Origin: Alphaproteobacteria bacterium
GTDB taxonomy: Bacteria > Pseudomonadota > Alphaproteobacteria > Micavibrionales > Micavibrionaceae
Assembly: GCA_018063145.1 (NCBI GenBank)
Contig: JAGOQV010000002.1
Location: forward strand, 1-50,295
Length of the DNA: 50,295 nucleotides
Direction of reading: 5' to 3'
The translations under genes were made by a program, and so were the position numbers. Below are positions 27,351 through 30,137 of the stretch, in pieces (the stretch's first letter is position 1; every line of letters begins with the position of its first letter). Below the pieces are notes generated by a model, which saw only the letters and a list, made by a program, of their open reading frames with translations, was not told the DNA's origin and did no database searches.

Positions 27351-27503
27351 CATTCTGCAACGTCCCGCTTGTCGGGCCATACTCTTTTGGTTCGCTTTGG
27401 GTGCAGGATAATGGTGGACGAACTGGCGTTTCCTTCTGTTGTAGAACGAAATTTTACGGTTCGGTTTGAAATCAAACAATAGGACTTGAAGGAGTCAAAT
27501 AGT
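27351..27503 (+). promoter_or_regulatory. Leader of the rpsM operon
   Basis: The leader can pair GTCCCGC with GCGGGAC-like partners only weakly. It does have CCCG/CGGG (27364-27376 area) and GTTCG (27390-27394) with CGAAC (27419-27423). A 23-codon reading frame runs 27411-27482 and ends 21 bases before rpsM, but its AGGA is only two bases from the ATG. In E. coli the equivalent leader binds S4; rpsD is not in this operon. Any regulation here is inferred. Confidence 0.35.
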
Positions 27504-27890
27504 ATGGCCCGTATTTCCGGCGTCAATGTTCCTGACAATAAAAGAGCAATTATCTCTCTAACTTACATTCACGGTATTGGCCGCTTCACGGCAGAGCAAA
27601 TGTGCGCGGAAGTTGGCATTGATTTTTCTCGCCGTATGAAAGATCTCACAGAAGATGAACTGAACCAGATTCGTAAAATTATCGAATCCGGTCGTTTCAT
27701 GATCGAAGGGGATCTGCGTCGCGAAGTTTCAATGAACATCAAACGTCTCATTGATATGCAGTGCTATCGTGGTTTGCGCCATCGCCGTGGTTTGCCTGTT
27801 CGCGGTCAGCGGACTCGCACCAATGCTCGGACTCGTAAGGGCCCAGCAAAACCGGTTGCGGGTAAAAAGCAAGCAAACGCTAAGAAGTAA
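27504..27890 (+). CDS. rpsM: 30S ribosomal protein S13 (uS13)
   Basis: S13 contacts the P-site tRNA and L5 across the subunit interface. ATG 27504 is chosen: [14 protein letters not shown] is the family start and GGAG (27491-27494) lies 9 bases before it. An in-frame TTG at 27486 is rejected. The 128 residues show [13 protein letters not shown] and the C-terminal [20 protein letters not shown]. The tail is Lys/Ala rich. It is the first gene of this operon. Confidence 0.98.
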
Positions 27891-28411: not shown

Positions 28412-29437
28412 ATGCTGATACAGAAAAACTGGCAGGAACTGATTAAACCGAATAAGGTTGAAATCGAGCGTAAGGCAAATATAAACAATCAAGGGAAAAT
28501 AGTGGTTGAGCCTCTGGAAAGAGGATTCGGTCTGACTCTTGGAAATGCGTTGCGGCGGATCCTGCTGTCCTCTTTACAGGGGGCTGCGGTTACGGGCGTA
28601 AAAATTGCTGGGGTCCAGCATGAATTTTCGACCATCGAAGGCGTTCGTGAAGATGTGACGGATATTATCCTGAACATCAAGGCTATTGCCGTTCGTATGC
28701 ACGTTGAGGGGCCCAAGCGGATGCGTTTGGTTGCCGAAGGGCCTTGTGAAGTGGCGGCTGGTATGATCGAAGCTGGCGCAGATATTGAAATCATGAATCC
28801 TGATCTGGTTATTTGTACCCTTGATAAAGGGGCTAAGCTGGAAATGGAAATGACTGTCAATACGGGCAAGGGCTATCGTCCGGCGGCGCAAAACCGTCCT
28901 GAAGATGCTCCTGTTGGTCTTATTCCAGTGGACAGTATTTTCTCTCCAGTGCGCAAAGTTTCTTACGAAGTTGAAGATACTCGGGTTGGTCAAATCACCG
29001 ACTACGATAAATTGACGCTTTCAGTTGAAACCAATGGGGTTGTTTCTCCAGATGATGCGGTTGCTTTCGCTGCTCGTATTTTGCAAGACCAATTGCAAGT
29101 TTTCATCAACTTTGATGAGCCGAAAGAATCAAAAGCTTCGGGTGAAGAGGAAACGCTTCCTTTCAACCGCAATCTTCTTAAGAAAGTGGATGAGCTGGAA
29201 TTGTCGGTGCGTTCTGCCAACTGCCTTAAAAACGACAACATCGTTTATATCGGCGACTTGGTTCAAAAATCCGAGAGCGAAATGTTGCGGACTCCAAACT
29301 TCGGGCGGAAATCTTTGAATGAAATCAAAGAAGTTCTCACGATTATGGGCCTGCATCTTGGAATGCAAATCGAAGGCTGGCCTCCAGAGAACATCGAAGA
29401 CTTGGCAAAAAAAATGGATGACCCTTTCGCCAGTTGA
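28412..29437 (+). CDS. rpoA: DNA-directed RNA polymerase alpha subunit
   Basis: RpoA dimerises to start polymerase assembly and its C-terminal domain contacts UP elements and activators. The 341 residues comprise the N-terminal domain (about 1-235, with [21 protein letters not shown]) and, after a linker, the C-terminal domain (about 250-330, with [15 protein letters not shown] and [14 protein letters not shown]). AAAGGGAAAAAGC precedes ATG 28412. It is followed by an unusually long, structured spacer before rplQ. Confidence 0.99.
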
Positions 29438-29461
29438 TAGGCGGGAGGATTAACCCTAGAA

Positions 29462-29546
29462 GGGACATGGTGTCCCACTCTGGTGAAGGAACAGCCGCAA
29501 GGCAAGTGCTTGCCGGACTAACAGATAGCTTCACCCGTTTGAAGCT
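29462..29546 (+). promoter_or_regulatory. Structured rpoA-rplQ spacer with alternative pairings
   Basis: In a 133-base spacer I see GGGACA/TGTCCC (29462-29476, loop TGG), GGCAA/TTGCC (29501-29514, loop GTGC) and a long-range GGTGAAG (29482-29488) with CTTCACC (29529-29535) enclosing the second stem. The bases CTTCA are also the left arm of a local 7-bp hairpin AGCTTCA (29527-29533) with TGAAGCT (29540-29546). The long-range and local stems exclude each other. No T run follows, so translation or processing control of rplQ is more likely than termination. Confidence 0.5.
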
Positions 29547-29570
29547 GCAGAAAAAGTAAAGGAATAAAAC

Positions 29571-30137
29571 ATGAGACACGGAATGGCAGGACGGAAACTG
29601 AATCGGACTTCGTCCCATCGCAAAGCTTTGTTTTCGAACATGGCCAATGCGCTGATTAAACATGAACAAATTGTGACGACTTTGCCGAAAGCAAAAGATC
29701 TTCGTCCATTTGTTGAAAAACTCATTACCCTTGGTAAAAAGGGTGGCCTTTCCAATCGTCGTGCGGCCTTTGCTATTTTGCGGGACGAAACGATGGTGGC
29801 AAAACTCTTCTCGGTTTTGGCAGAACGTTATGGGGACCGTCCCGGGGGCTATGCTCGGGTTCTTAAGGCAGGTTTCCGTTATGGGGATGCTGCTCCACTT
29901 GCTGTGATTGAACTGGTTGATCGGGACGTGAGTGCCAAGGGTCAGGACAGCGGTCCGGTTTTCACATCGGAATACGAAGCTCCTGTCGCTCCGGCGGGGC
30001 CTGCTGACGAAACCACAGTTCCGAAAAAAGCCGTTAAAAAAGCCAATGCAGAAAAAGCAGAGAAAGCAAGCGAGCCTGCAGCAGAGAAGCCAAAGGCTCC
30101 TCGCAAAAAGAAAACGGAAGATACTCCGGCTGAGTAG
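29571..30137 (+). CDS. rplQ: 50S ribosomal protein L17 (bL17) with long Ala/Lys/Pro tail
   Basis: L17 sits at the base of the 50S subunit near the tunnel exit. Residues 1-120 are the normal protein ([49 protein letters not shown]). Residues about 135-188 form a disordered-looking Ala/Lys/Pro/Glu tail, also common in alphaproteobacteria, making 188 residues. AAAGGAATAAAAC precedes ATG 29571. It ends the operon before a bidirectional terminator. Confidence 0.98.

Follow-up and report, generated by a model that had tools for sequence, protein, structure and literature searches.

The spacer between rpoA and rplQ in the stretch of DNA analysed here (50,295 nt, hereafter the window) holds a structured RNA of three hairpins, and comparison with related genomes makes it close to certain that this RNA is real and conserved. 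This comparison shows that the element is conserved in structure, occurs once per genome and keeps a constant position in front of rplQ, and the element probably represents a ribosomal-protein leader of the L17 type that is absent from Rfam, in which excess L17 would bind the P2 and P3 hairpins and hinder loading of the 30S subunit at the AAAGGA ribosome site. A cis-acting structured RNA before rplQ, with L17 as a possible ligand, had been proposed in a first-pass annotation of the same DNA; the RNA is supported by covariation in relatives and by the match of a covariance model built blind to the window, and L17 is supported as a plausible ligand, the assignment being by position only. The accompanying proposal, that the spacer switches between two exclusive folds, was not borne out.

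Gene setting and architecture of the spacer RNA

The window comprises an alphaproteobacterial S10-spc-alpha ribosomal cluster with the operon gene order rpsM, rpsK, rpoA, rplQ (rpsD is absent from the operon), and among named relatives the closest are MAGs designated Micavibrionaceae, Micavibrio or just Alphaproteobacteria. The rpoA stop lies at 29437 and the rplQ start at 29571, giving a spacer of 133 nt which is flanked, according to Pfam, by RpoA domains on one side and Ribosomal_L17 on the other. A search of the + strand of the spacer for a sigma-70-like internal promoter, covering the sigma-70 type, returned none. Further upstream, an Alpha_RBS-like element (RF00140) was observed at the rpsM start (27456-27536, + strand; 31.4 bits, Rfam cut-off 38), with matches at E up to 1 in 98 of the family's 104 genomes, 27 of which exceed the Rfam cut-off; this model runs into the rpsM coding sequence, and its score is partly coding conservation. 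The features of the spacer and its surroundings are as follows.

29438..29570, + strand: rpoA-rplQ intercistronic spacer, which holds the element (ORF table, sequence, flanking Pfam domains)
29463..29550, + strand: whole three-hairpin element, from P1 to GCAG (covariance models R1, 40.8 bits, and R2, 54.2 bits)
29462..29476, + strand: hairpin P1, GGGACA-TGG-TGTCCC (own fold and pairing in relatives)
29479..29517, + strand: hairpin P2 (minimum-energy fold of window and relatives; compensatory change)
29489..29508, + strand: conserved P2 internal loop, closed by P2b (near-invariant letters in relatives)
29518..29526, + strand: single-stranded linker ending in a conserved AU (conservation in relatives)
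29527..29546, + strand: hairpin P3, AGCTTCA-CCCGTT-TGAAGCT, the local 7-bp hairpin of the first-pass annotation (compensatory change)
29547..29550, + strand: conserved GCAG tail (C in 40/40)
29558..29563, + strand: AAAGGA, likely Shine-Dalgarno sequence of rplQ, unpaired in the conserved fold (sequence)
29571..30137, + strand: rplQ, ribosomal protein L17, directly behind the element (Pfam PF01196, E 6.4e-37)
29482..29535, + strand: long-range stem GGTGAAG/CTTCACC, present in the sequence but neither conserved nor belonging to the element (pairing versus shuffles)

The spacers of relatives share a common layout consisting of P1 (of the GGGCAUnnnGCCC type), about 3 nt, P2 with its internal loop, about 9 nt, P3, GCAG, the ribosome site and rplQ. 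In the window, P1 pairs 29462-29467 with 29471-29476, as had been claimed, and the lower helix of P2 (29479-29484 with 29512-29517) is followed by a bulged G29485 and three further pairs (29486-29488 with 29509-29511), above which GAACA (29489-29493) stands opposite AAGUG (29504-29508) in an internal loop. This loop is closed by P2b, GCC-GCAA-GGC (29494-29503), which was also present as claimed and for which an alternative pairing GGCAAG/CTTGCC exists. P3 pairs 29527-29533 with 29540-29546, again as described, and the AAAGGA site lies 11 nt 3' of it. Within the window's family, the internal loop has A at the position of A29490 in 35/35 sequences, and opposite it U29507 in 36/37 and G29508 in 35/37; the linker-end AU before P3 has A29525 in 40/40 and U in 38/40. 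These conserved letters of the internal loop, linker and tail suggest, as far as sequence can tell, a specific binder rather than stability alone. The probability of P2 in the window's own ensemble is only about 0.4, and therefore the support for this hairpin comes from the relatives.

Covariation and distribution in relatives

Located in 55 of the 58 related genomes, rplQ served to place the spacers, which were then read. An alignment made with MAFFT from sequence only, comprising 13 relatives and leaving the window out (A2), had 92.1% of cells paired and compensatory change in 17 of the 22 pairs, against 38–51% of cells when the partners were slid by 1–3 columns. The covariance model built from it (R1), and hence blind to the window, returned a single match in the window, at 29463-29550 (40.8 bits, E 1.9e-7); elsewhere in the window's genome, one place was listed at E up to 10 (15.4 bits, E 2.28). 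When 41 copies (40 distinct) were aligned to R1 (A3), the 40 distinct sequences had 93.9% of cells paired and compensatory change in all 22 pairs, with 34–52% in the slid versions. Since A3 was fitted to the structure, A2 and the blind R1 match are the cleaner evidence. By hairpin, relatives had 100% of cells paired in P1 (compensatory change in 4/4 modelled pairs), 91.5% in P2 (8/8 pairs) and 95.3% in P3 (7/7 pairs).

A second model built from the 41 copies (R2), which scored the window copy at 54.2 bits, found exactly one copy each in 67 of 142 Micavibrionales genomes, spread over two families, and in 53 when only the 98 better assemblies of the order are counted. Of 30 loci examined, 28 had the rplQ start located immediately 3' of the element; in the remaining two the pattern used did not pick up the start, although the rpoA end was recognised. 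Two features expected of ribosomal-protein leaders were found here: a covarying structure, and a consistent site just upstream of a ribosomal-protein gene, with one copy per genome.

Relatives bearing the element have spacers of roughly 110–190 nt, some longer, whereas those of relatives without it are often 14–38 nt; the absence in short-spacer relatives is as expected for an optional cis-regulator, and, with about half of the order's genomes giving no match, the control would not be essential. The spacer had been called long for this gene pair, which stands in comparison with E. coli (40 nt); among relatives that carry the element its length is typical. Searches with R1 and R2 over the whole class gave only weak matches outside the order, none of them convincing: the one inspected, L107, falls within a coding frame, and several of the rest are on contigs other than the one bearing rplQ. 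Spacers resembling P2, linker and P3 were nevertheless recognised by eye and by folding in other alphaproteobacteria (L128, L155, L163 and Azospirillum L219), and in a mixed set of 14 sequences drawn from inside and outside the order, 90.8% of the P3 cells were paired, compared with 34–43% when slid. In many further alphaproteobacteria the spacer is short and lacks the element, and a wider alphaproteobacterial spread of a looser form is put forward tentatively.

Individual spacers showed features of their own. The 183-nt rpoA-rplQ spacer of L007 (G052) has no three-hairpin element and contains an apparent small open reading frame starting ATGGTTAAAGTTGTAGTAGATGAA. In the 290-nt spacer of L017 (G007), about 100 additional nt lie between the element and rplQ, an apparent insertion between P3 and the ribosome site. 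L289 (G178), from another family of the class, has upstream of rplQ a P1-like hairpin, GGGTCATGGTGACCC, with GCCCC after it in the manner of the linker; the full element was not recognised there.

Folding energy and the long-range stem

Taken by itself, the window spacer has the same folding energy as its shuffles (z -0.07), and being unremarkable alone it leaves the decision to the relatives. The 93-nt core of the window has a z of -1.94 and cores in relatives a mean of -1.9, values that carry a slight favourable bias from trimming the cores to the motif. Single-sequence folds made without an alignment gave the same three hairpins as the minimum-energy structure in most of 33 trimmed cores, and the local hairpins are far above chance when set against relatives. 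An automatic architecture count on 110-nt spacers recovered 6 of 38 even within the order, the criterion being too strict to be useful.

The first-pass annotation had read the spacer as a translational switch, in which a long-range stem alternates with P3 and so exposes or hides the rplQ start. The 7-bp complement it described is present (GGTGAAG at 29482-29488 with CTTCACC at 29529-29535) and would exclude P2 and P3; these, however, are precisely the helices that are conserved, and the AAAGGA site is inside neither of the competing helices. The spacer contains two 7-bp Watson-Crick complements, against a shuffled mean of 0.26, with at least one in 18.6% of shuffled spacers and two in 5%; as such complements arise in about one in five shuffled spacers, the long-range stem taken alone is nothing unusual. 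The compensatory-change test that had been set beforehand in the first-pass annotation was run on this stem, which failed it: 34.3% of its cells are paired in the alignment versus 34.9% in shuffles, with a covariation score of 0.102 versus 0.104. Without alignment, the longest match between the two arms has a mean length of 3.3 bp both in relatives and in shuffles, the window having 7. The stem further accounts for less than 1% of the predicted ensemble, and structures constrained to contain it are less stable by about 4 kcal/mol. A fortuitous complementarity in this one genome is the best reading of it, and a switch built on it is very hard to credit.

Known rplQ-linked elements and the probable ligand

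Rfam 15 searched over the whole window gave no match at the gathering score, and when 29380-29640 was searched at E up to 10 only one chance snoRNA match (E 7.2) was obtained. Rfam searches of the relatives likewise gave none at the gathering score, and lax limits yielded sub-threshold, mostly scattered matches to unrelated families. The earlier statement that no family matches is thus accurate for the sequence, but it overlooks RF03132, a family near in kind: a predicted L17 leader of Actinobacteria and Alphaproteobacteria, whose assignment to L17 rests on rplQ being the sole gene regulated (PMC7247131, 2020). With the RF03132 model (cut-off 34.9 bits; positive control at Nonomuraea rplQ, 44.5 bits), the spacer gave no match even at an E limit of 10, and none of 142 order genomes or 289 class genomes was over the cut-off; among weak matches in the order, those with a known rplQ place lie elsewhere. 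By position, the element is L17-leader-like, yet it is outside RF03132 by Rfam's test.

The two RNAs are nonetheless alike in several respects. Both are directly upstream of rplQ, both begin with a hairpin, 3 nt and a second hairpin, as in P1 and P2, and both have a U.G wobble and then an unpaired purine atop the P2 lower helix (...CCGGU-A-C..G-GCCGG in RF03132; UCUGGU-G-AAG..CUU-GCCGGA in the window). They differ in that RF03132 is 56 nt long and lacks the third hairpin, and in that its conserved apical GGUACCUGAUACGGCC is absent here, where P2 has GAACA/AAGUG and GCC-GCAA-GGC. A divergent member of RF03132, rather than a separate family, is a possibility that we regard as doubtful, and it is a matter of descent compatible with the L17-leader reading: the shared gene, place, layout and wobble-purine feature favour it, as do the look-alike spacers in other alphaproteobacteria, while P3 and the failure of the model to match in the spacer or to pass its cut-off in the order or the class speak against it. 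Two other known elements are more distant. L17DE is also an RNA element tied to rplQ, but it is downstream of the gene and restricted to Firmicutes (PMC7247131), whereas the window element is upstream and alphaproteobacterial, and the Rfam search gave no L17DE match in the window. RF00140, the Alpha operon ribosome binding site with its uS4 pseudoknot, controls genes of the same operon but differs in place and structure.

In the L17-leader reading, L17 made in excess over free 23S rRNA would bind the leader RNA, with contacts most likely near the P2 internal loop and P3, and the bound protein would obstruct 30S loading at the ribosome site, located 11 nt beyond P3; in this way rplQ, as the last operon gene, could be tuned apart from the gene for RNA-polymerase alpha, with which it would share a transcript. 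Because the conserved fold leaves the ribosome site free, repression would need blocking or trapping of the ribosome. We infer that the element is transcribed within the operon mRNA, that control would act on translation and that L17 would be the ligand. This ligand assignment, which draws on position only, would follow from there being a single regulated ribosomal gene (the ‘Only’ principle), as applied to RF03132 in PMC7247131. A likeness to 23S rRNA was sought in the LSU rRNA of a relative and none beyond chance was found, the best covariance match having 7.2 bits (E 0.93) and local alignments lying within the shuffled range.

Other roles for the same conserved RNA have to be set against this. 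It could bind uS4 instead of L17, as a second S4 site before rplQ through which S4 would control this gene together with the alpha operon start, and the Alpha_RBS-like element at the rpsM start, widespread in the family, and the repression of rplQ by S4 in E. coli (PMC10931766) are in keeping with such a role. The score of that element is partly rpsM coding conservation, however, no Alpha_RBS match was found in the rplQ spacer, and rpsD is outside the operon in the window. The E. coli precedent, a second S4 site before rplQ proposed by Meek and Hayward 1984 (as cited in PMC10931766), concerns the same gene boundary but a 40-nt spacer without these hairpins, and strong evidence for the site was not provided, according to PMC10931766; we consider binding of uS4 decidedly improbable. 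Alternatively, the hairpins could be an intercistronic processing or stability element, marking RNase cleavage or shielding the rplQ end and setting the rpoA:rplQ ratio without any ligand. Three hairpins between genes whose products the cell requires at unequal levels would suit this role, for which the position fits equally well, but the invariant loop A opposite a near-invariant UG and the conserved linker AU and GCAG suggest a specific binder, and we judge a ligand-free element improbable.

If the L17-leader reading is correct, the element might constitute an independent family, with three hairpins of its own and an internal-loop protein site, extending across Micavibrionales and, in looser form, other alphaproteobacteria; together with RF03132 it would then be either a second solution to L17 self-control or one of the two ends of a single ancient leader. 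We hold this wider proposition tentatively, a little short of an even call. In the literature, no experimentally shown L17 leader was found, RF03132 itself being a prediction, and a second covariation-supported structure before rplQ that is absent from Rfam provides a concrete RNA for testing L17 self-control. It also illustrates how the last operon gene can be uncoupled from the RNA-polymerase gene that precedes it, and accords with the view, put forward in PMC7247131, that numerous ribosomal leaders still await discovery.

The window L17 protein (29571-30137) possesses a long C-terminal tail, rich in K/A/P/E, past its Pfam domain (residues 20–116 of 188), and the lengths of the rplQ open frames differ among relatives.
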